This document shows positions 7,905 to 20,024 of a stretch of 64,000 nt of DNA, in pieces (positions within the stretch are counted from its first letter, which is position 1; every line of letters begins with the position of its first letter). The stretch is from contig NZ_KE386588.1 of assembly GCF_000427805.1 (NCBI RefSeq), positions 177,881-241,880 of the forward strand, read 5' to 3'. A model generated the notes under the pieces. The model was not told the origin of the DNA, did no database searches, and saw only the letters and a program-made list of their open reading frames with translations. Both the position numbers and the translations under genes were made by a program. The stretch comes from Budvicia aquatica DSM 5075 = ATCC 35567 (lineage in GTDB: Bacteria; Pseudomonadota; Gammaproteobacteria; Enterobacterales; Enterobacteriaceae).

Positions 7905-8075
7905 TTGTTTTTAATCGCACGGTTACTACCTTCGATAGACGCCTTGGGCAATAAAACCAGCGCATGGCTTGGAAAAATTGTAGGTAAAGCATATGCAGGT
8001 TCATTAAAAATGTCAGGTGCTGTCGCTGCCGGAGTAGTAACCAGATTGCTTTGTGGATACTTCGGTCTAGGTTAA
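7905..8075 (+). CDS. Possible small glycine-rich hydrophobic peptide or gene remnant
   Basis: An open frame of 56 codons beginning with TTG. The C-terminal 40 residues contain a Gly/Ala-rich hydrophobic run (SGAVAAGVVTRLLCGYFGLG) and end just before a hairpin at 8096. No good ribosome binding site is seen, and an in-frame stop lies directly upstream, so it may be the tail of a decayed gene. The composition resembles small bacteriocins or membrane peptides. Low certainty. Confidence 0.25.
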   Translation: MFLIARLLPSIDALGNKTSAWLGKIVGKAYAGSLKMSGAVAAGVVTRLLCGYFGLG

Positions 8076-8095
8076 ATGCTATCGCTTAAATATCT

Positions 8096-8120
8096 AGTGC
8101 GCCTACAGAACAGGCGCACT
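8096..8120. terminator. Hairpin terminator after the toxin-antitoxin operon
   Basis: AGTGCGCCT (8096-8104) pairs with AGGCGCACT (8112-8120), loop of seven. It can end transcription of the antitoxin gene (stop at 8127) and of anything read from the left. T-tracts are weak on both sides. Confidence 0.6.
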
Positions 8121-8126
8121 CATTGT

Positions 8127-8423
8127 TTATGCAACTTTAATTTGATTAATGATAAAGGGGTTAGCCTGCAATAAGATAAGTAGTTTACGCGCGGCCCCCG
8201 TAGGCTGGCGACGCTTAGTTTCCCAGCTTTTCACAAGATCATAACTGACGCCAACAGCGACGGCAAAATCCTGCTGTTTTAACCCGGTTGCCTCGCGTAT
8301 CGCCTTAACGTCAATCTCGCTAAAAGTATGAACATGCTCCGGCTTCGGCGTCTGTTCGCCCTTTTCAATTCTTACCATCTCTTCTGCACTAGCCAGCAGA
8401 TCGGCAAATAGTTCGTCTTTCAT
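8127..8423 (-). CDS. HigA/NadS-type antitoxin, XRE helix-turn-helix
   Basis: A 98-residue protein. The N-terminal third (MKDELFADLLASAEEMVRIE) is typical of NadS/HigA antitoxins paired with RelE-like toxins. A Cro/C1-type helix-turn-helix follows at about residues 40-80 (KQQDFAVAVGVSYDLVKSWE). A longer frame using TTG at 8471 is less likely than ATG at 8423. It should neutralise the toxin encoded just upstream and repress the operon through the paired palindromes at 8832-8875. Toxin-first order is usual for higBA. Confidence 0.85.
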   Translation of the reverse strand: MKDELFADLLASAEEMVRIEKGEQTPKPEHVHTFSEIDVKAIREATGLKQQDFAVAVGVSYDLVKSWETKRRQPTGAARKLLILLQANPFIINQIKVA

Positions 8424-8471
8424 ACTCTTTCTCAGCCCTCTGGCCTGGGAGTTACTCCCAAGATAACGCAA

Positions 8472-8789
8472 CTAATTCAGTATATCCGACAGTTGCCTCA
8501 ATAATTTTTTCTGTTCCTCAGTCAAATTATCCTGCTCATTCTTTGGATATACCAAAGCAAGGTAGATACGTCCATTACTTGTTACATTATAGTATATAAC
8601 CCGCACACCACCGCGCTTACCCATACCCGAACGGCTCCAGCGTACTTTGCGAAATCCACCGGTACCTGCGATGGTGTCACCGATGTCAGGATCATTAATC
8701 AGCGTTTCCTGAAATTCCCGGTATTCATCATCAGGTAATAATTCCCGCCGCCGTTTACTGAAACCTTGCAGTTCAATAAAAGTGAACAT
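8472..8789 (-). CDS. RelE/HigB-type toxin
   Basis: A 105-residue protein of the RelE/ParE superfamily, HigB2-like branch. Visible family features are the basic core FRKVRWSRSGMGKRGGVRVIYY, written here in parts: FRKVRW then KRGGVRVIYY, and the strand IYLALVYPKNE. Family members are mRNA interferases that cleave at the ribosome. Two ATG codons are adjacent; the second, at 8789, has better spacing from GGGAG. The antitoxin start lies 48 bases downstream of the stop. No inactivating change is seen. Confidence 0.87.
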   Translation of the reverse strand: MFTFIELQGFSKRRRELLPDDEYREFQETLINDPDIGDTIAGTGGFRKVRWSRSGMGKRGGVRVIYYNVTSNGRIYLALVYPKNEQDNLTEEQKKLLRQLSDILN

Positions 8790-8831
8790 CATACTCCCTG
8801 ATTAATTATTGTCCTTACACAGTAGAATAAA

Positions 8832-8875
8832 TGTACTCCGTACATATTTCAAGTCACTTACATGTACGGAGTACA
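8832..8875 (-). promoter_or_regulatory. Twin palindromic operators of the toxin-antitoxin operon
   Basis: TGTACTCCGTACA (8832-8844) and TGTACGGAGTACA (8863-8875) are each 5-3-5 palindromes and are also reverse complements of each other. Their centres are 31 bases apart, close to three helical turns. They sit 43 bases upstream of the toxin ATG, where the HigA-type antitoxin would bind. Confidence 0.75.
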
Positions 8876-8941
8876 CTATTTATTACCTTAACTTGTAACC
8901 CTGTCGTCTACAAGTCAATTCCCTTCCCTCTTTCCCCGCTG

Positions 8942-9179
8942 ATGGATGAACAAGTACACCAGCTCCCCTATCCGGACGGTACGGTGGTGGAGTACGATCC
9001 TCGCTCCGGTGTATTAAAAGCCACCGGTATCAAAACCGCATTTTGTGAACCTGAATCGCCGCCGCTGGCGCACCACGCGCTTTTATCTTGTCACAATACT
9101 CACGTAAGAGAGGGCATTATCTCTGACAGCAGCTTGCGTCCCCATACCGGCGTGATGTCTCTGTCGATAGTGCTTTGCT
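8942..9179 (+). pseudogene. Fragment of phage baseplate assembly protein V
   Basis: Translation from 8942 gives PDGTVVEYDPRSGVLKATG followed by IKTAF, the C-terminal signature of P2-type gpV baseplate spike proteins. Recognisable similarity covers only about 8942-9043. The frame continues into sequence with no gpV character, and the N-terminal domain is missing. A phage tail gene remnant, fused by deletion to the ankyrin fragment at 9180. Confidence 0.6.
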
Positions 9180-9371
9180 TCATGCCCCTTGTGCAACTAA
9201 CCAGCGGGTCAATTCATCAGGTATCTGAAACAGGCTTAAAGCCGTCCGTTTACCGGAACCACCTCGGGCATCCAGTTCACAGGTATCATAAACCGCTTTC
9301 AAGGCGGCAATATCAGCGGCTTCTATTAAGTCGTTGATATTCTTTGGTAGCATCTTTTTCTTCTTGGCCAT
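9180..9371 (-). pseudogene. Truncated ankyrin-type protein
   Basis: The frame begins MAKKKKMLPKNINDLIEAAD and reads on to CELDARGG and DELTRWLVAQGA, then stops at the junction with the phage fragment. This matches the first repeat of small ankyrin-repeat proteins often found beside phage or secretion-system genes; normal members are several repeats longer. The missing 3' part lies where the gpV scar begins, so both were probably cut by one deletion. Confidence 0.55.
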
Positions 9372-9487
9372 TGTATAAATTTCCTCTAACAACCATAGAT
9401 TGGAAACCGAAGTATTAAGCTTATTGACCTAATCTTTAGCATAAAAATGCGACAAGTAACGCTATCTTCTGGAAAATGCCTGTTTAA

Positions 9488-9979
9488 TCACGTTTGAAAT
9501 ATAAGGAATACGCTACTTTTTGAAATTGAGTACCCTATATAGGTTATGGCATAACAGCCGGTTCCAACGGCCAGTCCGCCTAAAGGAACAAACCAAGCAG
9601 ATACATTCGCGGAATGGTTTACAACCAGCGCGACGATAGAACCTAGAGTAACCAGCAGAGATAGCAACATCGCCACAGTCACGAAGGCGACGACAAAGGT
9701 GCTCATTTCAAAATTACCGTTCAAAACGATCTTATTATCAATGGATTCAAAACGACCGGTAAAATTTAAGCTAAATGAATTCCTAACGTTAGGAGTCACT
9801 TTTTTAAGTACTACATTATTTTCAGAGACCTGCCCCACAACGCTGGTTTCTGCCGGAATTTGCAATAGTCGGCGTTGGGTGATGCCATTATTCAATCGTT
9901 CTAATGAAGTCGATAGGTCAAAACGACTGTCAAAACTGATAGGAATAGGGGTATAGATAAAACTCAAAAATTTAAACAT
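9488..9979 (-). CDS. Small membrane protein of unknown function
   Basis: A 163-residue protein with a polar N-terminal half (residues 1-90) and two or three hydrophobic segments after it, one near residues 95-117 and one near 128-152. No family is recognised. Its first 50 codons are repeated, in decayed form, at 13499-13647, where the copy lies directly behind the SWIM zinc-finger gene. The intact copy likewise lies behind a decayed SWIM gene end. This suggests it was originally the last gene of the 901-residue/SWIM operon. Confidence 0.6.
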   Translation of the reverse strand: MFKFLSFIYTPIPISFDSRFDLSTSLERLNNGITQRRLLQIPAETSVVGQVSENNVVLKKVTPNVRNSFSLNFTGRFESIDNKIVLNGNFEMSTFVVAFVTVAMLLSLLVTLGSIVALVVNHSANVSAWFVPLGGLAVGTGCYAITYIGYSISKSSVFLIFQT

Positions 9980-10402
9980 ATAAGCATCCTTTGCTTAAAA
10001 TTCTATAGGCATCAATGGGATTAGTACTGGTGCTAGCTATCGATTAGGACACGATGGTGCTATTTTTTAACGTAACACAATCAAACCATGACCATTTTCT
10101 TCACCGCCAATACGTGTTTACAAGGCCCCCTAGCCCCCTGATGCTTACCATACCACTCACAGGTACAACGCTGATTATTACCATCAAATATCACTGTGTG
10201 CAAAACGCGACTACCTTCAACTCTGGCTCTCCCGTCCTAAGATATTCTAAATAATTTCAACTTTATTACCAACAATCAGCTTGTTCACACCTTTAGGCGT
10301 GGATTTAGCACCATAATACGGCTGATTTTGAAGAGGAACCATTGATAGAAAAAACTTTATCGTTCAGACTAAAGCCAAATAGCCCCATCGCAGATAATTA
10401 CG
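9831..10402. repeat. Direct repeat, copy A (left of the amidohydrolase cassette)
   Basis: About 570 bases that align with 13499-14070 in the same orientation, by eye around four-fifths identical with small indels. It contains the 5' part of the small membrane protein gene and the 3' end of a SWIM gene. Confidence 0.8.
10081..10402 (-). pseudogene. Decayed 3' end of a SWIM zinc-finger gene
   Basis: The last codons, including the Cys-X-Cys and CKH residues of the SWIM motif, remain nearly identical to 13747-13860. Upstream, small deletions (around 10205-10235 and 10285-10310) destroy the frame, and homology stops near 10402. This is a second, broken copy of the gene at 13747-15090. Confidence 0.75.
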
Positions 10403-10795
10403 CTCAATACCTGGGAGCAATATAAATTAAATCATATTTATATATCATCGATATATAAGTCAAACACAAAGTTACTTATGTTACTGTCTCATAATAATAC
10501 TAATAAGCAGTAAGGGTAAAAATAACATGACTGATAGATGATTTATTACCAAAGAAATAAAACCATGGTTAAATATTTTTTATTTCATTACTAATGCATA
10601 TTAATTAGCTAATTTTGCCGACAACATCACATTAATAAAAAATCATAACCTGCTTGTAAGATTTAGTAATACGCCAACTCATCATAAATTTGTTAAAACA
10701 CCTCAAGCATCTCCAATTATTTATTAGATGGCAGCATTTAATATAAATAAGCCATTCATCTGCATTGATATTAAAATAATATAAGGGAGTATTAT
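10403..10795. other. AT-rich leader region of the amidohydrolase operon
   Basis: Very AT-rich, with no open frame of note. It must contain the promoter of the amidohydrolase/symporter operon. AAGGGAG lies just before the ATG at 10796. No clear operator palindrome was found. Confidence 0.5.
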
Positions 10796-11986
10796 ATGTC
10801 TAATTTTATTACCATTATCAATCAATCTGTAAAACAGATATATCCTCAGGTAGTTCAATGGCGTAGGCATCTTCATCAATATCCCGAATTATCCGGTCAA
10901 GAGTTTAAAACTGCTAATTTTATCTACCAGATTTTAACCGAGCTAAATTGTTTTGAGTTACAACGCCCCACAGAAACGTCCGTTATTGCTATTTTAAAAA
11001 GCCATAGGCCGGGCAAAACCATTGCATTAAGAGCCGATATTGATGCCTTGCCGGTTAAGGAAGAGAGTGATAGTCAATTTAAATCTCAACATCCTGGCAT
11101 TATGCATGCGTGTGCCCATGACGGCCACACCGCAGCCCTGTTAGGTATTGCCTGTATTCTGGCTCAGTATCAACATCTAATAACAGGGACAATTAAGCTA
11201 ATATTTCAACACGAAGAAGAAATTGGTACCGGAGCGCTTGAACTAATTGAACATGGCATTTTGGAGGGTTTGGATTACCTGTTTGGCGCTCATATTTGGT
11301 CACCGCTAGAGCTTGGGAAAATTGGTATTTGTTATGGTCCAATGATGGCCGCAGGTGATTTTTTTACCATTACCATCACGGGAAAAAGTGGCCATGCAGC
11401 AATCCCACAAGAAGCCATTGATCCCGTCATTATCGGAGCTGAATTAGTCTTAGCTCTACAAACTATTATCTCTCGTAAAATTAATCCGATTCGTACAGGA
11501 TTAATCTCCGTCACCCGCTTTTTATCCGATTCTGCCTATAACGTCATCCCAGAAAAAGTCACTCTCGGCGGTACTCTACGCTCTTTAGATATGGAGACCA
11601 TGAATCAAATCTATGACGAAATTGAAAAATTAAGTATTCAAATAGCCCATATGCATAGTGCAACTGCAACAGTGTGCTTTGAGCAGCGCCATAACTCAGC
11701 CCCTCTTTATAATAATCCTGAGGCCACGAAACTGGTCGAAGAGGCACTCACTGAGGGGATGGGTGCCAAACATTGTCAATACACCGATCCAACGCTAGCT
11801 GGTGAAGATTTTTCTCAATATACCAAACAGGGTATACCCGCCTGTTTTCTATTTATTGGTACCCGCTCGCCGGGTGCCGATTACCCCCATCATCACGCTA
11901 AATTCAATATCAATGAGGAGTCAATGCAATATTCGATGAAAGCGTTTCTTAATATTATAAGAAAAATCATGATAGAGGAGAAATAA
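10796..11986 (+). CDS. M20D family amidohydrolase (N-acyl-amino-acid or hippurate hydrolase type)
   Basis: A 396-residue metallopeptidase-fold enzyme. Family metal ligands are seen: HACAHDGHTA (Cys106, His108), the glutamates of FQHEEE (about 140-141), His166 in AHIWSP, and a His in HHHAKF near the C-terminus. The dimerisation domain lies at about residues 185-300 (GKSGHAAIP start). The Cys ligand marks subfamily M20D, which removes acyl groups from amino acids or conjugates. It is cytoplasmic; no signal peptide is seen. The symporter gene follows after 54 bases, so the likely job is import and hydrolysis of a conjugate. The exact substrate is not readable. Confidence 0.88.
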   Translation: MSNFITIINQSVKQIYPQVVQWRRHLHQYPELSGQEFKTANFIYQILTELNCFELQRPTETSVIAILKSHRPGKTIALRADIDALPVKEESDSQFKSQHPGIMHACAHDGHTAALLGIACILAQYQHLITGTIKLIFQHEEEIGTGALELIEHGILEGLDYLFGAHIWSPLELGKIGICYGPMMAAGDFFTITITGKSGHAAIPQEAIDPVIIGAELVLALQTIISRKINPIRTGLISVTRFLSDSAYNVIPEKVTLGGTLRSLDMETMNQIYDEIEKLSIQIAHMHSATATVCFEQRHNSAPLYNNPEATKLVEEALTEGMGAKHCQYTDPTLAGEDFSQYTKQGIPACFLFIGTRSPGADYPHHHAKFNINEESMQYSMKAFLNIIRKIMIEEK

Positions 11987-12040
11987 GCTTTCTAAAGTAA
12001 AACTAAAAATAATAATTTGTTGATATAGGAGATTTTATCA

Positions 12041-13396
12041 ATGACAGCTAAAGATCAGAAAATCCCTTTATTTGAAAAAATCAGTTATGGATTAGGCGAT
12101 ACCGCCTGTAATTTAGTCTATATTGTGGTAACGACCTATTTAACCTATTACTTCACTGATGTATATGGTATTAGCCTTGGGGCTGTCGGTATATTAATGC
12201 TAGCAGTCCGCTTTTTAGATATGATTGATAGCCCTATTCTTGGTATGTTAATTGATAAAACAAATACCCGCTGGGGAAAATCACGTCCATGGATATTATG
12301 GTTTTGTATTCCCTTTGCTGCCGCTTGCGTTATGTTATTCTGGGGGCCCGATCTAAGCCCGTCAGGAAAAATGATTTATGCCTTCACGGCCTATATTTTA
12401 GTCAGCGTATTGTATTCGGCAGTCAATAACCCTTTATCAACTATTTTACCCAGCTTAACCAATGACCAACAGGAAAGAACCGTCGCCAATACGTTTAGGA
12501 TGTTAGGTGGCCAATTTGGTGGGCTTGTTGTCAATTTAACCCTTTTACCTTTAGTTGCTTTCTTTGGCGCTGGGGATATGCAAAAAGGCTTCTTTGCCAC
12601 AATTTGTTTATATGCCATTGTCGCCGTTGCGCTATTACTTATTACTTTTTTTAATACCAAAGAGCGTGTTCATACTGATTCAAGCCAAAAATCACTGCCA
12701 CTAAAAGAGGGGATAAAAGCGATTAAAGGCAATACCCCTTGGTTTATGGCGCTGCTATTAACAATTTTCTGTTATATCTGTTATACCCAACGCTCTACTG
12801 CGGCTATTTACTATGTGACTTACTATATCGGTCAACCTGAGCTTGTCCCGATTGTAAATTCATTAGCTATGTGCAGCATCTTAGGTTTATTTATGGTGCC
12901 ATTTTTAACCAAGCGATTTGATAAGCGCTGGGTTATTTTAGTTGGCTTTAGCGTATTTGCTCTGGGTCAGCTGATCATCTACCTTGGCGATAAAAATATT
13001 GCACTGATCTATTTTGGTACCGTATTCGGCGCAATAGGCAAAGGGTTTACCTCCGGTTTATTATTCGTTCTTATCGCTGATACCGTTGATTTTGGTGAAT
13101 GGAAATCAGGTATCCGAGCCCAAGGGCTATTGGTATCGACGGCCGCAGGAATTGGTATAAAACTTGGAGCAGGCCTTGGTGGAGCTATACCTATGTGGGT
13201 TATGGCGGCCGGCGGTTACGTCGCGAATCAGCCTCAGACTGAGGCTTCAATGGATGCCATTATTGCCAGCTATATCTGGATCCCTATCGCCTTTGCTCTA
13301 GTCTGCGTTTTGATTCTATTTTTCTTTAAATATGAAAAACCCTTTAATGAAATCATTGACGACCTGAATAAACGCCATAAATTAAGCAATAACTGA
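12041..13396 (+). CDS. GPH-family (MelB-like) cation symporter
   Basis: A 451-residue transporter with about twelve membrane segments. The N-terminus EKISYGLGDTACN and the acidic motif RFLDMIDSPILGMLIDKT are hallmarks of glycoside-pentoside-hexuronide:cation symporters, where the aspartates bind Na+ or H+. A good ribosome binding site (AGGAG) lies at 12027. It forms an operon with the M20 enzyme and ends at a terminator. GPH carriers usually import glycosides; together with an amidohydrolase the substrate may be an acylated or amide-linked sugar or amino acid conjugate (inference). Confidence 0.87.
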   Translation: MTAKDQKIPLFEKISYGLGDTACNLVYIVVTTYLTYYFTDVYGISLGAVGILMLAVRFLDMIDSPILGMLIDKTNTRWGKSRPWILWFCIPFAAACVMLFWGPDLSPSGKMIYAFTAYILVSVLYSAVNNPLSTILPSLTNDQQERTVANTFRMLGGQFGGLVVNLTLLPLVAFFGAGDMQKGFFATICLYAIVAVALLLITFFNTKERVHTDSSQKSLPLKEGIKAIKGNTPWFMALLLTIFCYICYTQRSTAAIYYVTYYIGQPELVPIVNSLAMCSILGLFMVPFLTKRFDKRWVILVGFSVFALGQLIIYLGDKNIALIYFGTVFGAIGKGFTSGLLFVLIADTVDFGEWKSGIRAQGLLVSTAAGIGIKLGAGLGGAIPMWVMAAGGYVANQPQTEASMDAIIASYIWIPIAFALVCVLILFFFKYEKPFNEIIDDLNKRHKLSNN

Positions 13397-13446
13397 GCAC
13401 TGTAATATACGGTTATACTAAATAGATATGTTTAATTCACACACAA

Positions 13447-13479
13447 AACCCAGTTAATCAATTGATTAAGCTGGGTTTT
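13447..13479 (+). terminator. Terminator of the amidohydrolase/symporter operon
   Basis: AACCCAG-TTAATCAA (13447-13461) pairs with TTGATTAA-G-CTGGGTT (13462-13477), with a single bulged G, followed by TTTT. Confidence 0.8.
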
Positions 13480-13498
13480 ACTAGCTTATTCAGAAGCA

Positions 13499-13647
13499 TG
13501 CCCCACCACACCGGTTTCTACCGGTATTTGGAATAGTCTCTTTTGGCTGATGTTATTATTCGATCGTTCTAATCAAGTCGGTAGATCAAAATGGCTGTCA
13601 AAACTCATTGGAATTGGGGTATAGATAAAAATCAAAGAATTGAACAT
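13499..13647 (-). pseudogene. Broken 5' fragment of the small membrane protein gene
   Basis: The frame starts MFNSLIFIYTPIPMSFDSHF, clearly related to the start of the protein at 9979. Codon 25 is TGA where the intact gene has TCA, and homology ends at 13499. It lies 100 bases behind the SWIM gene stop. Confidence 0.75.
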
Positions 13648-14070
13648 AAAGCATCCTTTGCTTAAAACTCTATTGGCCTAAGTTGAATCAGTACTGGTAG
13701 TCGCCTCAATTAGGAGAAAATAGCGATATTTATTAATCTAGCATAATCAAACCATGACTATTTTCTTCACCGCCAATACGTGTTTACAAGGCCCCCTAGC
13801 CCCCTGATGCTTACCATACCACTCACAGGTACAACGCTGATTATTACCATCAAATATCACTGTGTGAAAAATACCACTACCTTCAACCCGGGCTTCTATC
13901 CGTCCTAAAGTATTCTGAATAATTTCAACTTTATTACCAGCAATCAGTTTTTCCGCACCTTTTAAACGCGGATTTAACTGCATGATACGACTGATTTTGA
14001 AGGGGAGCTGTCGATAGAAAAAAACATTATCATTCAGATCAAAGCCTAATAGTCCCATAGCCGCTAATTG
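13499..14070. repeat. Direct repeat, copy B (right of the amidohydrolase cassette)
   Basis: Partner of 9831-10402, same orientation. It contains the membrane protein fragment and the intact 3' end of the SWIM gene. Between the two copies lie about 3.1 kb with the M20 and GPH genes. Confidence 0.8.
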
Positions 14071-15090
14071 CGCAGATACATTCTCTGTTTTACTTAAATA
14101 GAGACTTTCTTTAATAGTAAAAAGTGAAGGATCAAAAGTCTGATTGGCATAGGCATTCTGTTCAAAAATATCCATCCACCCTTGAGAAACGTTATCAATA
14201 AGCGCATCTAACGTCGCACCTTCTCCTGAGAAACCTCGCCAAGGATCTCTGGACAATGACAGGCTAAATCTCAGGCTACCAAAACTGAATTGCCAGGTCG
14301 TCGCCTGCATCTCTGAATGGGCAAAAACTTGTAGCTGTTTTATAAATGGTAATAATGGCTCCAGCAATCTCAATCGATGTAGCCCCCCCAGACAAATCGC
14401 CCCTTCTGATTTCATCGGTGAAAAAAGTGGCGTATTGCCTTTAATAACTAAAAAATAATCCGTTTTTACTTGCCCTTTTGGCATTGACCTAAACAGCTGT
14501 TGGGTTTGAATTTTATTGAACGTATGACTTATTTCTGATTGCGATAGATAGATTTGTACCGAACTTAGGCCTTTAATCCACTTAACCGGCAGAGGTACTT
14601 TTCGCTCAACGACAGTCTTACCTTCAACGTCCAGCCCCACCTCTTTCTGCCCAATAGAAAGCATCACGTTTTCATTGTTCTGAATGCTGCTTAACGCCGT
14701 TAGCATCGGCTGATTAAAATCAACGTTCGTTGTCCCGTTAGCCAAAAACTCACCGTCTAGTGCATCAGCTAATAGGTCAACCCGGGCATAAACTCCGGCG
14801 CAATGGGAAAAGCCCTCAAACCGTACACAGCTATTGCCAGCGGTAACAATAGGATCTTTTAACAGCGCCAATTGGAAAGGTGAAAGATTAAAACTTGATT
14901 TAACAACGTTTGATAAAGCGACCAAACATCGCGCCATCGTAAACGGTTCTTTCACTCTGCCCAGAAAAAAACAGGGCACATCGGTACTTTTCTGAATCTC
15001 ACTGTATTGAGATAAAAAAAGCGCTTCTGAGCCATTATCTTTAAGCAAGGCTGATGGTGCTAAATAGTTATAGGTTAATAGATCATCCAT
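13747..15090 (-). CDS. SWIM zinc-finger protein
   Basis: A 447-residue protein whose C-terminus carries the SWIM motif: Cys420-Thr-Cys422, then Cys435-Lys-His437. SWIM domains bind zinc and contact DNA or protein partners. The first 400 residues show no recognised domain and alternate strands and helices. The gene starts one base after the stop of the 901-residue gene, so both are translated together. E. coli YehQ is a SWIM protein in a cluster with large uncharacterised partners, a loosely similar arrangement. A broken second copy of its 3' end lies at 10081-10402. Confidence 0.8.
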   Translation of the reverse strand: MDDLLTYNYLAPSALLKDNGSEALFLSQYSEIQKSTDVPCFFLGRVKEPFTMARCLVALSNVVKSSFNLSPFQLALLKDPIVTAGNSCVRFEGFSHCAGVYARVDLLADALDGEFLANGTTNVDFNQPMLTALSSIQNNENVMLSIGQKEVGLDVEGKTVVERKVPLPVKWIKGLSSVQIYLSQSEISHTFNKIQTQQLFRSMPKGQVKTDYFLVIKGNTPLFSPMKSEGAICLGGLHRLRLLEPLLPFIKQLQVFAHSEMQATTWQFSFGSLRFSLSLSRDPWRGFSGEGATLDALIDNVSQGWMDIFEQNAYANQTFDPSLFTIKESLYLSKTENVSAQLAAMGLLGFDLNDNVFFYRQLPFKISRIMQLNPRLKGAEKLIAGNKVEIIQNTLGRIEARVEGSGIFHTVIFDGNNQRCTCEWYGKHQGARGPCKHVLAVKKIVMV

Positions 15091-15091
15091 C

Positions 15092-17797
15092 TTATTGAAT
15101 TCTCGCCTTTAAATCATCATGAAGCATGACTAGCTTTTTATAATTGGCAATATTAGTCTCTGACAGGTGAGATAATATATTAGAGACTATCACCTCCAAC
15201 GCTTTATTTTGGTCGGGATTCACTCCAACCAGCGTTTGAGACGCTAAGTCAGTAAAGCGTTTTAACGGCGCCCACTCTTCTTTTTCCAACGTTCCGATAA
15301 TATCGCCAATTAACTGATTGTTGACGGGTGAATATTGGCCTAATTTATCAATCCAAATTTCACCGGCTAGCGTTCGTATTGTTTTATCACCGTGCAACAT
15401 ACTTAATGCAATCAGCAGATACGACGTATCAGTTAACGGAAAAGGCAATTGATAAATTGTTTGCAACACCTCTGAAATCGCTTTGACTTCTTTTATATCA
15501 GAGCATTCAAACTTTGAGGATATAAACCGCCTCAGAATAATATCGGGAACATAAGGACAGCTAAAAATACGCCGTCTATTATCTGCAGACCACTCGAAAG
15601 AACTATAACTGTAGCTCGCACACATATATTGGTAAAACAGAGGACTATCTACCTTAAGTGAATAATCGGCAATATCAATACGTAGCTTTTTGGTAAAAAT
15701 ATCCTTACTTTCATTATTCAAAATACTCACATTCTGTTTTCTGCAATTTATCTGCCAAGGCAATATTTGAGTCATAAGCTCAATAGGGATATTGTTAGTT
15801 TCTAATAGAGAACAACCCATATTAAAGGCCGTTTCATCAGGGCTATAGCTATAGCGAGTAATGACAGCGGCTAATTTCCAGTCCTTATTGGCAGCCTTAT
15901 CAAGGCAACCTGCATCACCTGAAAGTAAATAACTCAGTAATAACGGAGCATCGCCCTTAAGAGTTTTCAATACCGGCTTCAGCTTATCGAGATCTGCATC
16001 CAATGCACAGCGCTGTAGCGCTAGCTGTAAATCAAAGCTGCTGGGTTCAACGTTTTGTTGTTGATAAAGATATAGTCTTTCCGCTAAGACCATGGGATCA
16101 ATAAAGCACGGTAAATGAGTTGGCGTTGATAACAGTGGTAACCTTGAGTTATTACTCAGTTGTTCTAACACGTATGAAAATATATCCATATATGGGATAT
16201 ATTTTTCCATCTTCGACGTTTTCCAGTTCTCGGGGCTGAAAGTAATATGCTTATATTTATCGGCTAATTTTTGCAGATTTCTCGTTTGCTCCGGGTAACG
16301 CTCGATCAAGCGACGCCCGTATTCTAAGAAGAAAGCGGCTGATATTCGGTCTAAAAATCCAATGGTTGAATTCCATATATCAATTGTTTTGTAAGCCTGT
16401 AAGAAAGCGGGTTCCAGCTGTTGAACCGTATCTTCGTTAATCTGTCCGGAAAATTGTAAAAGATAGGTGGGCAACTGATCAAAATGATAGGGTTCTGCGT
16501 TAAAAAATACCTGACCTAAAAGAAAAACAAAATCATCCCAGGTGCTAATTTCAGGAATACGGTTATCTTCCCTAATCAGTTCGATTCTTATCCGTTCTTT
16601 TTCTTTATAGACAGAGGATTCAGCAACTACTGCCGGTATCTCAAGAAAGTCTTTTAATAAAAGGCGGGTATCCATCAAAAGATTATCAATATAATCACAG
16701 ATATTCGCTATAAGGTTCTGGTCCGCAGGGTTTGCATATTTAACAATAAGCTTGGCCGCTTTCGTTTGCAAAGATTGGTCTTTACTCAAGAATGTATTAG
16801 GTAGCAGTACCGCAATATCATCAGCCAACTCAGGAGATCGCTTTGCTAAACTATCGGCTATCATCAAGGTGTTATTTACAATACCTTTGGTTTCATAAGA
16901 TAACAATAACGGCATGTACGCAATAAACTCACCGGCACTAAATTTTGGCTGAGCGTTTATTTTTTTAATCATACTCAGCGCAACGTTTATCGGTTTGCTT
17001 TGTGGACAGTGAAACACAGAAAATAGCTCATTCTGCAAATGGATACATTCTTCAACAGTTGGCTCAAGAGCAACAAACAAATCGGCATACCAATTGGTCT
17101 GATTTTTATCAAAATTGCGGTTTACGGACAGCAGACATTCCTTCAGCACCTGCATCCGATTTATTAGTTTATTATTAATAATTTTCTTAAAAATATATAT
17201 CCACTTTCGGTCATCCGCATCTATAGGCTTATTCTCTTTTGGCGACCAATAGTCCGACCATGAAATAGTATTAGGATATTGGAAAATAAACCAGATATGC
17301 TTATCTAAAATAAAAGGATATTTTTCCAGACAACTCACATCCAATACCATTTTTTGGGCGATTAATTCAGGAACAACGTCTAACAAATAACCTTTAGCTA
17401 TCCAATCAGCCAAGCTTTCATATTGAATAGGTATATATTCCTGATTAGATAACTCATTAACATATTGATTAAACCATTCCGGTTGATACCACGATAAAAT
17501 ATTATCAATCTGCTTATCGGCAGGCAATAAATGAGGCTTTATTAACTTACGATCAGCTTTTCCGTAGCATACAAACATCGCAATGCTTAACATATTGAGC
17601 TGTTCTCTTGTGCCAGCATATCCCCAAATTCTTCTGCTCAATTCACGGGTAGTGTATAAACGCTTTATATCTTGTTTAATCGAAGGTATTAGCGCTCTTC
17701 TGTCCTCAGCATTCAACTTCTTAAAAAAGGAAACCAGCTGTTCCCCATTACCCAACTCAATAATTTCAGAGTATTTTTTCTTATGATCCAATTCCAT
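15092..17797 (-). CDS. Large helical-repeat protein, DUF6493-like
   Basis: A 901-residue, probably cytoplasmic protein without signal peptide or membrane segments. The centre (about residues 280-370) contains HEAT-like pairs, for example SLQTKAAKLIVKYANPADQN, of the kind seen in DUF6493 proteins, which also occur next to SWIM zinc-finger genes. I assign that family by pattern memory only. No catalytic motif is visible. Base composition is AT-rich compared with guaA next door. Operon: this gene, then the SWIM gene, and ancestrally the small membrane protein. Function unknown. Confidence 0.65.
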   Translation of the reverse strand: MELDHKKKYSEIIELGNGEQLVSFFKKLNAEDRRALIPSIKQDIKRLYTTRELSRRIWGYAGTREQLNMLSIAMFVCYGKADRKLIKPHLLPADKQIDNILSWYQPEWFNQYVNELSNQEYIPIQYESLADWIAKGYLLDVVPELIAQKMVLDVSCLEKYPFILDKHIWFIFQYPNTISWSDYWSPKENKPIDADDRKWIYIFKKIINNKLINRMQVLKECLLSVNRNFDKNQTNWYADLFVALEPTVEECIHLQNELFSVFHCPQSKPINVALSMIKKINAQPKFSAGEFIAYMPLLLSYETKGIVNNTLMIADSLAKRSPELADDIAVLLPNTFLSKDQSLQTKAAKLIVKYANPADQNLIANICDYIDNLLMDTRLLLKDFLEIPAVVAESSVYKEKERIRIELIREDNRIPEISTWDDFVFLLGQVFFNAEPYHFDQLPTYLLQFSGQINEDTVQQLEPAFLQAYKTIDIWNSTIGFLDRISAAFFLEYGRRLIERYPEQTRNLQKLADKYKHITFSPENWKTSKMEKYIPYMDIFSYVLEQLSNNSRLPLLSTPTHLPCFIDPMVLAERLYLYQQQNVEPSSFDLQLALQRCALDADLDKLKPVLKTLKGDAPLLLSYLLSGDAGCLDKAANKDWKLAAVITRYSYSPDETAFNMGCSLLETNNIPIELMTQILPWQINCRKQNVSILNNESKDIFTKKLRIDIADYSLKVDSPLFYQYMCASYSYSSFEWSADNRRRIFSCPYVPDIILRRFISSKFECSDIKEVKAISEVLQTIYQLPFPLTDTSYLLIALSMLHGDKTIRTLAGEIWIDKLGQYSPVNNQLIGDIIGTLEKEEWAPLKRFTDLASQTLVGVNPDQNKALEVIVSNILSHLSETNIANYKKLVMLHDDLKARIQ

Positions 17798-18012
17798 TTG
17801 ATATTTACCTTAATTACTGACTTTATTTGCTAATATTAATAATTATCTATTTTACACAATTAACCATGCGTTGTGGTTGTGCCACATCACGCTATAGCAA
17901 GCCTTGTATGTAGCGCGTTACTGAATTCAGGCATGTCCTCTTCGGTTATCCATCAATGGCTACTTTTCGTTGTCTGCCCTTTCCCTCACGAAACCATCGC
18001 ACCTTGTTAATT

Positions 18013-18345
18013 TCACTTAATTGTCTGAAAACTCTCATCCCACAATTTCAGCCTCTTAACGCCAGCGATAAGCTTTTCGAATTCTTCCTCAGACATATCA
18101 GCCACCTCAAAGATCAACACATGAAACCATGGATTAGCATGGCTGCTGTCAATGTCGATCCGACAACCACGTTCAATATCTTCGATGCCACAAATTTCAC
18201 CCAGGGTATATACCAGTTCATCACCGGCATCATCGAAATTACCATGGCCGTATATGCTTTCGATTTGGGACAGAGGGATATAGATTGTGCGCCAATGCTG
18301 TGTGCCGAGTTGCGACAAATATTTGCTCTTAGAAGCTTTTATCAT
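18013..18345 (-). CDS. Hypothetical acidic protein
   Basis: A 110-residue soluble protein with many acidic residues and few lysines in its second half. No family is recognised. The reading frame is intact and starts with ATG after a weak GGCGAG. It lies on the same strand as the 901-residue gene, 215 bases upstream, and is separated from guaA by the guaA terminator. Size and acidity are like many immunity or antitoxin proteins, but there is no direct evidence. Confidence 0.55.
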   Translation of the reverse strand: MIKASKSKYLSQLGTQHWRTIYIPLSQIESIYGHGNFDDAGDELVYTLGEICGIEDIERGCRIDIDSSHANPWFHVLIFEVADMSEEEFEKLIAGVKRLKLWDESFQTIK

Positions 18346-18372
18346 TCAGATAACTCGCCAATGATGTGACAC

Positions 18373-18410
18373 AAATAAAAAAACCCAGATAATCCATCGA
18401 TTAATCTGGG
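18373..18410 (-). terminator. Terminator of guaA
   Basis: CCCAGAT (18384-18390) pairs with ATCTGGG (18404-18410), with further A/T pairs inside. On the minus strand the stem is followed by a run of seven T. Confidence 0.85.
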
Positions 18411-18446
18411 CATGATATCAACTAGCCTTTTATGGGAACTAGGGTC

Positions 18447-20024
18447 TTATTCCCACTCAATCGTCGCCGGTGGTTTACCGCTAATATCATAAACCACACG
18501 AGAAATACCGTTCACTTCGTTAATGATCCGGTTAGAAACACGGCCTAAGAAGTCATACGGTAAATGAGCCCAATGCGCGGTCATAAAGTCGATAGTCTCG
18601 ACTGCGCGCAGTGAAACAACCCAGTCATACTTACGGCCATCGCCCATTACGCCAACGGAACGCACCGGCAAGAATACGGTGAACGCCTGACTGACTTTAT
18701 TATACAGATCGGCTTTATGCAGCTCTTCAATAAAGATCGCATCAGCACGGCGCAGTAAGTCGCAATACTCTTTCTTCACTTCACCCAGAACGCGAACCCC
18801 TAAACCCGGGCCCGGGAACGGATGGCGATACAGCATGTCGTACGGCAGGCCTAGCTCCAGACCAATCTTACGCACTTCGTCTTTAAACAGCTCTTTTAAT
18901 GGCTCAACCAGGCCCATCTTCATTTCAGCCGGTAAGCCACCAACGTTATGGTGAGATTTAATCACATGAGCTTTACCGGTTGCAGAAGCAGCAGACTCGA
19001 TAACATCAGGATAAATCGTGCCCTGAGCCAGCCACTTAACGTTAGTCTGCTTAGTTGCCTGCTCATCAAAGACTTCAACAAAAACCCGACCGATAGTTTT
19101 ACGCTTAGCTTCAGGCTCATCAATGCCGGCTAAAGCACTCAGAAAGCGCTGTTCAGCTTCAACATGAATAATGTTCAGACCAAAGCGATCGCCGAACATC
19201 TCCATCACTTGGTTTGCTTCATTCAGGCGCAGTAGGCCATTATCAACAAACACGCAGGTCAGGCGGTTACCGATAGCACGGTGTAATAGCATGGCGGTAA
19301 CCGAAGAGTCGACACCACCAGACAAACCAAGAATGACCTGATCTTCACCCACCTGCTCGCGAATGCGCTCAATAGCATCATCAATAATCGTAGCCGGGGT
19401 CCAAAGGGCTTCACATCCGCAGATATCAAGCACAAAGCGCTTTAACAGGTTTAACCCCTGATGGGTATGGGTAACTTCCGGGTGGAACTGTATGCCATAG
19501 AAGTGTTTGTCTTCGTTGGCCATAATGGCAAACGGACAGGTATCGGTGCGGGCAATGGTTTTAAAACCGGCCGGAATAGCCGTCACTTTATCACCATGAC
19601 TCATCCAGACGTCAAGCTGAGGTTTGCCTTCAGCAGATAGCGCGTCCTGAATATCACGGACAAACTCGCTTTGTTCAACGATATCAACTTTAGCATAGCC
19701 AAACTCACGCTCAGTTGACCCCTGAACCTGACCGCCAAGCTGTACGGCCATGGTTTGCATACCATAGCAAATACCTAATACAGGAATGCCGGCATTGAAT
19801 ACATATTCCGGTGCGCGCGGGCTTCCGGCTTCAGTGGTGCTTTCAGGGCTACCGGAAAGAATAATACCGGTTGGTTGGAATTCACGAATTTGAGCTTCGC
19901 TCACGTCCCATGCCCATAGTTCACAATAAACACCGATTTCACGTACTCGGCGGGCAATTAATTGGGTGTATTGAGAACCAAAATCCAGAATTAGGATACG
20001 ATGCTTATGGATGTTTTTTGACAT
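18447..20024 (-). CDS. guaA: GMP synthase (glutamine-hydrolysing)
   Basis: 525 residues, the E. coli length when started at [16 protein letters not shown] (ATG at 20024); a longer in-frame start at 20063 adds 13 residues with no homologue. It converts XMP, glutamine and ATP to GMP. The N-terminal class I amidotransferase domain has GICYGMQ with the nucleophilic Cys86 and the HPEVTHT His. The ATP-pyrophosphatase domain has the P-loop LSGGVDSSV (about residues 235-243). The C-terminal dimerisation domain ends PPATIEWE. It follows guaB with 165 bases between, in the usual guaBA operon order. The 3' end of guaA is a known integration site for genomic islands. Confidence 0.98.

Follow-up and report, generated by a model that had tools for sequence, protein, structure and literature searches.

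Two adjacent genes in a 64,000-nucleotide stretch of the Budvicia aquatica DSM 5075 genome (contig NZ_KE386588.1; the whole stretch is called the window below) constitute, on comparison with other genomes, a real, conserved and uncharacterised two-gene module. The upstream gene encodes a protein of 901 residues that we term D, and the downstream gene a protein of 447 residues that we term S. They lie on the same strand and are separated by a single base, as described in an earlier note made from the sequence alone. S is related to a component of the type XIII retrons and is predicted to be built around a sliding-clamp fold. We know of no experiment on the D–S system.

How general is the D–S pair? 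A scan of species-representative genomes with the S alignment gave at least 565 places encoding relatives of S, of which the best 80 by similarity of S were analyzed; 79 of these carry Bacteroidota names and one is Escherichia albertii. D, or a piece of it, adjoins S in 74 of the 80 loci. Thus the pairing is kept, its lack being what the earlier note had set as the refutation of its proposal. A full-length D is found no more than 60 bases from S at 71 loci, with D preceding S in 44 and following it in 27, and D is always on the strand of S. At three further loci the D next to S is broken (L030), cut by the end of the contig (L083) or 167 bases away (L080). By open reading frame (ORF) calls there is no D directly beside S in six loci, comprising three from Myroides, one (L041) from a metagenome-assembled genome (MAG), L011 and L048, and in all six cases DUF6493, a family to which D belongs, is encoded elsewhere in the genome. 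Among the Myroides and the related MAG (L024, L031, L034 and L041) S stands apart from D, and the neighbors in L024 include fumarase. In the type strain of E. albertii (L030:1-3978) S is intact and the adjoining D is matched in three frames, so that it is either broken or misread.

The pair is not restricted to the Bacteroidota. Seven plasmid records have a match to S, and the three that were inspected (H2, H3 and H5), from Asticcacaulis, Diaphorobacter and Streptomyces, each carry the pair with S first, accompanied by two D genes in Diaphorobacter. A D gene on a Hymenobacter plasmid has no annotated S neighbor. The pair therefore spans Bacteroidota, Pseudomonadota and Actinomycetota. Among the enteric bacteria its presence is patchy: DUF6493 is found in 3 of 392 genomes of the family of B. 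aquatica, including that of the window, and S-like DNA in 2 of 5426 E. coli genomes. In these two E. coli and two other enterics, copies of D followed by S occupy one site, running from thiMD to a yegW-like regulator, with yegX present in three of the four. This differs from the site in the window, where the pair sits behind guaA. An island at the 3′ end of guaA was considered: 18300-18700 has no second copy in the window except for a 31-base match at 13445, within a terminator-like hairpin. With at least several hundred S relatives the pair is widespread among genes of ‘unknown’ function, and our analysis adds a predicted structural identity.

S ends in a SWIM zinc finger, in agreement with the earlier assignment; this is the sole Pfam match of the protein (PF04434, 20.8 bits against a cut-off of 19.6), and the residues C420, C422, C435 and H437 are kept in all 28 aligned S proteins. 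The remainder was modeled with AlphaFold2 from 28 sequences, comprising that of the window and those of the loci, giving a mean predicted local distance difference test score (pLDDT) of 79.5 and a predicted template modeling score (pTM) of 0.76. On comparison with solved structures using Foldseek, all 50 matches listed are sliding-clamp entries, with a best E-value of 4e-9. VIA-align superimposes residues 42–284 of S on residues 1–245 of a Sulfolobus PCNA chain (2ix2_B), with Z = 16.8 and a root-mean-square deviation of 3.1 over 217 residues. S is thus predicted to carry a two-domain sliding-clamp fold of the PCNA type. It is followed by a region (residues 303–359) predicted to form three helices and two strands, assigned by eye as a probable winged helix.

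Several conserved features map onto this model. Basic residues occur at positions 54, 209 and 239 in 28 of 28 proteins, and at 193 and 241 in 27; there are few acidic residues in these helices apart from E244. These basic helices would face the interior of a ring. The stretch from E162 to Q179, between the presumed clamp domains, is nearly invariant among the 28 proteins. An RGFSGEG loop immediately after the clamp region (residues 285–291) is kept in all 28 apart from one change of F to Y; its pLDDT is low, and it is also present in the S proteins of Asticcacaulis, Diaphorobacter and Streptomyces. No nuclease or ATPase was convincingly matched when S and D were scanned against Pfam, NCBIfam and PADLOC, and the earlier note likewise saw no such motif.

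Sequence comparison connects S with the type XIII retrons. The window protein matches the PADLOC profile SWIM_XIII with an E-value of 4.5e-55 and 185 bits, a distant relationship when compared with the 687 bits scored by a retron member, and all 28 S proteins match the same profile (best 8.1e-64). Alignment of S with type XIII SWIM proteins by hhalign gives a probability of 99.3% and an E-value of 1.2e-20 over 365 columns, extending from residue 78 to the end. On this evidence the SWIM protein of type XIII retrons and S are homologs. The PADLOC candidate PDC-S62 is also matched, by 26 of the 28 S proteins (best 1.6e-5). In a scan of 398 genomes of the Pseudomonadota with SWIM_XIII five were positive, comprising that of the window, one marginal case and three matched over the full length; a single control genome out of 14, that of Methanosarcina acetivorans, also matched. 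The three full-length cases are complete type XIII retron-like loci of Pseudomonadota (L109:6624-13598, L110:6378-13433 and L111:6208-13760), with the gene order large WGR/HEAT protein, SWIM protein, reverse transcriptase. Two of the three were scored, giving E-values of 1e-180 and 2e-178 for RT_XIII and 9e-263 and 5e-218 for WGR_XIII; the single S-type protein scored from these loci gave 5e-207 for SWIM_XIII. Rfam, which may not hold a model of a type XIII msr-msd RNA, gives no match at 8000-19000 of the window.

D is a different kind of protein. Pfam matches to DUF6493 (1e-72, 245 bits against a cut-off of 25), DUF7824 (1e-54) and DUF7825 (9e-36) together cover most of its length, and Pfam finds no WGR domain. 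The predicted structure (pLDDT 87.5, pTM 0.69) is nearly all helical. Its best matches among the solved structures listed are proteins of the ARM/HEAT type at Z of about 12, where the guide value of the tool for helical repeats is 13, and Foldseek E-values are no better than 2e-4. We therefore describe D as a predicted HEAT/ARM-like alpha-solenoid, which bears out the large HEAT-like scaffold of the earlier note, and claim no closer kinship to any solved family. D as a homolog of WGR_XIII was considered and set aside: among 40 D proteins scanned with PADLOC, four match WGR_XIII (best 1.2e-4) and two HEAT-ARM_XIII (best 5e-3), that of the window matching neither.

The two proteins have evolved at different rates. 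In the largest bin, of 1410 locus pairs, mean identity is 65% for S and 31% for D, and in a closer bin of 742 pairs 85 and 75%, respectively; the pairs were chosen through S, which exaggerates the contrast. For enteric loci found through D, the window compares with G377 at 68% for S and 45% for D, and with G072 at 65 and 42%. The window S is 38% identical to that of Asticcacaulis and 32% to that of Streptomyces, where D falls to 18%. D also varies in number, from one to three copies beside S; three precede S in E. coli 2017-02-2CC and two in E. coli R32_14_1F. In several Chryseobacterium the D distal to S is present only as pieces.

Trees were built from 43 chosen D and 37 S proteins. In the D tree the first D of three enterics and that of both Tannerella and Dysgonomonas form one cluster (100/100), well away from the enteric D next to S. 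The latter joins the Dysgonomonas D next to S, within a group of eight rows (97/91). Because these are two separate groupings of enteric with Bacteroidales proteins, it appears that at least two old types of D precede S in both groups; long branches and unusual composition (G072_D1 is flagged) urge care. The first type is missing from one of the two E. coli. Nor was it found in the window, where tblastn with four such proteins matched only the D gene itself, and so a remnant of it there was rejected. The S tree places the protein of the window and the enteric sequences at the base of the Bacteroidota without resolving them, and we claim no direction of transfer between phyla. A constant S core with a variable, duplicating D would suit a conflict system, with D facing a counterpart that keeps changing.

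Taking these features together, we tentatively favor a reading of D–S as a two-protein conflict or stress module, in which a clamp-like, nucleic-acid-binding core provided by S is steered by the variable solenoid D. S would assemble on nucleic acid as a ring, or as a platform resembling one, contacting the nucleic acid through the basic inner helices, the winged helix and the zinc finger. D would dock on S and recognize a variable partner, such as a damage signal or a protein of a phage, thereby controlling where or when S engages the nucleic acid. The outcome might be interference with the replication of an invader, or the recruitment of repair or shutdown functions; neither protein shows a catalytic motif. 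In type XIII retrons the control role of D would be taken by the WGR/HEAT-ARM protein with the reverse transcriptase and multicopy single-stranded DNA (msDNA). A wider proposal, which we regard as possible and hold with less conviction, is that a dedicated, non-replicative PCNA-like clamp with winged helix and SWIM finger forms the core common to a family of conflict systems. It would stay constant while the solenoid is swapped: DUF6493 paralogs in one case and WGR/HEAT-ARM protein, reverse transcriptase and msDNA in the other. If S is truly a clamp, some bacteria possess a clamp of two domains in addition to the one used in replication.

Defense is here a hypothesis, and the module may have an antiphage function. 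The homology to a retron component links it indirectly to defense, and the patchy presence in enterics, the span of three phyla and the rapid evolution of D may be counted on the same side. A number of observations weigh against our favored reading. The clamp assignment derives from a single AlphaFold model made with 28 sequences; identity to clamps is 6–13% among the VIA-align matches listed, and the Pfam search of S returned no clamp. Comparison of D with three type XIII WGR proteins by hhalign found no match (probability 0.1). Of the 10 RVT_1 matches in the genome, none lies on the contig of the window (C55). Since a reverse transcriptase is lacking on that contig and only one component is shared, the window pair as judged by its sequence is not classifiable as a retron. 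Neither S nor D matched any phage record at an E-value of 1e-3, and a scan of viral contigs with patterns from the window proteins, whose reach is limited to close relatives, found none; the idea that the pair is phage cargo was accordingly dropped. The neighborhood gives no established defense-island signal. The scan, which had no control set, covered 127 of 207 cluster representatives, most of those from Chryseobacterium and many short ones being left out, and PADLOC at 1e-10 returned 14 families with one neighbor each; these include Tmn, PDC-M72A and RT_UG29, and also generic WYL, ankyrin and subtilase proteins. Finally, 40 Chryseobacterium loci have a common neighbor, a shared chromosomal setting that could resemble that of a stable housekeeping locus.

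The RVT_1 matches of the B. aquatica genome are located on contigs C2, C26, C48, C62, C71, C93, C96, C107 and C111, and one of them contains stops.

That stable setting would also fit a response to RNA or DNA damage by repair or checkpoint rather than an antiviral role, with S a specialized clamp loosely like the eukaryotic 9-1-1 and D its adaptor. We consider this rather unlikely, while giving it more weight than the other alternatives. RNA-repair genes occur in the fetched flanks of the D–S unit at 3 of 33 loci (L055, L061 and L069), where about 0.1 would be expected by chance as estimated from the genome counts of RlaP and Hen1. A Bacteroidota MAG has a same-strand run of four genes, RlaP, RlaP-like, S and D (L055:7955-14251); Hen1-Pnkp lies upstream of the unit in L069, and Pnkp-Hen1 is convergent in L061. 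However, this adjacency was noticed post hoc and the numbers are small. RlaP is present in 20 of the 33 genomes and Hen1 in eight, mostly far from D–S, and in Pontibacter mangrovi the RlaP-Hen1 spacing is unchanged on a contig to which S and D cannot belong. Moreover, such rapid evolution of D is atypical for housekeeping repair.

Could one protein be toxic and the other restrain it, in the manner of a toxin–antitoxin (TA) or abortive-infection unit? Retrons act in this way, the operon is tight with conserved gene stoichiometry, and TA genes adjoin the pair in the window as well as on two plasmids. Yet a strict TA pair looks less likely, since S is intact and its neighboring D broken in the E. 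albertii type strain (a sequencing error is possible, and that genome may hold other D genes) and the two genes are separated in Myroides and others; to this may be added the Hymenobacter D lacking an annotated S beside it. We regard the TA alternative as improbable. Equally doubtful is that the clamp fold of S is a protein-binding platform only, making no contact with nucleic acid, so that the pair is a scaffold or regulator of protein complexes: SWIM fingers can bind proteins, the identity to clamps is very low and likeness of fold alone shows no function, but the match runs end to end through both clamp domains, the presumed inner helices retain their basic residues, and a probable winged helix follows.

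The features of the locus are collected in Table 1.

Table 1. Positions in the window of the D–S unit, the predicted parts of S and nearby genes.
Feature	Position	Strand	Basis
D, 901-aa predicted alpha-solenoid protein (DUF6493 + DUF7824 + DUF7825)	15092..17797	(-)	ORF, Pfam, predicted model
S, 447-aa protein (predicted clamp fold, probable winged helix, SWIM finger)	13747..15090	(-)	ORF, Pfam, PADLOC, model
S residues 40-284, predicted PCNA-like two-domain clamp	14239..14973	(-)	Foldseek, VIA-align
S residues 285-291, RGFSGEG loop	14218..14238	(-)	alignment of 28; low pLDDT
S residues 303-359, probable winged helix	14014..14184	(-)	predicted secondary structure, by eye
S residues 411-442, SWIM zinc finger CxC...CxH	13765..13860	(-)	PF04434, alignment
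Broken duplicate of the S 3′ part	10081..10403, ends approximate	(-)	tblastn, DNA repeat
Second, broken copy of the small membrane gene	13479..13648	(-)	repeat; internal stops
Gene of the 163-aa small membrane protein (local passenger)	9488..9979	(-)	family genome scan, tblastn
NadS-family antitoxin gene	8127..8471	(-)	NCBIfam
RelE-family gene	8472..8792	(-)	Pfam

The surroundings of the unit are largely as the earlier note had them. The block is AT-rich, with a GC content of 0.34–0.43 at 10–18 kb against 0.45–0.50 at 18–28 kb, and a toxin–antitoxin-like pair of RelE- and NadS-family genes (8127-8792) lies next to it. The flanking repeat is genuine, its copies at 9809-10403 and 13479-14073 being 83% identical over 599 columns. 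The copy at 13479-14073 consists of the intact end of S and a broken membrane gene; that at 9809-10403 has a broken end of S, with 59% identity to residues 342–447 and five internal stops by tblastn, and an intact membrane gene. Genes resembling an amidohydrolase and a GPH symporter sit between the two. The frame of a 168-aa ORF contains ‘YPDGTVVEYDPRSGVLKATGIKTA’ in the window at 8951-9150 (+), which we take to resemble a truncated phage baseplate protein gpV and which would count among the phage scars of the earlier note.

From the flanking repeat the small membrane gene had been put forward as the third member of an ancestral operon, and this does not stand. The gene was found only in B. 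aquatica itself among 295 genomes of its family, and tblastn of loci L001–L115 matched only those from this same genome. Its product has one long hydrophobic stretch, at about residues 88–126. All that the two copies of the repeat establish is that S and the membrane gene were adjacent before a duplication within this genome, and in the related operons compared the recurrent extra gene is a paralog of D and not the membrane gene.

A further lead, a ternary system of MoxR, vWA and SWIM proteins, was also followed and set aside: no paper joining the three terms was found, and six regions inspected have no MoxR or vWA annotation. The term SWIM is absent from the main text of PMC7159879.

Lastly we compare D–S with known systems. 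D and S are direct members of named families (PF20103, PF25148, PF25149 and PF04434) to which no function is attached; RefSeq gives the adjacent genes of E. coli and of plasmids the product names DUF6493 family protein and SWIM zinc finger family protein, and a search of the available papers for DUF6493 found none. Like the DNA sliding clamps, PCNA, bacterial DnaN and 9-1-1, S has a two-domain PCNA-like fold in its predicted model. It differs in that there is no match at the level of sequence, in the addition of a winged helix and SWIM finger, and in having D rather than replication genes as neighbor in the regions inspected. As to the type XIII retrons, a search of the available papers found none on their mechanism; ‘retron type XIII’ is listed among PADLOC results in the accessible part of PMC11953036, and XIII, SWIM and WGR do not occur in that of PMC12548924. 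Unlike these retrons (RT_XIII, SWIM_XIII, WGR_XIII and HEAT-ARM_XIII), the D–S pair has no adjoining reverse transcriptase and D no WGR domain, and the RGFSGEG loop of S was not found in the retron SWIM proteins inspected. Yet the homology of their SWIM protein to S takes in the finger, the winged helix and most of the clamp region, and both systems couple it with a large helical-repeat protein. The predicted fold of S offers a concrete hypothesis for the type XIII retrons themselves.

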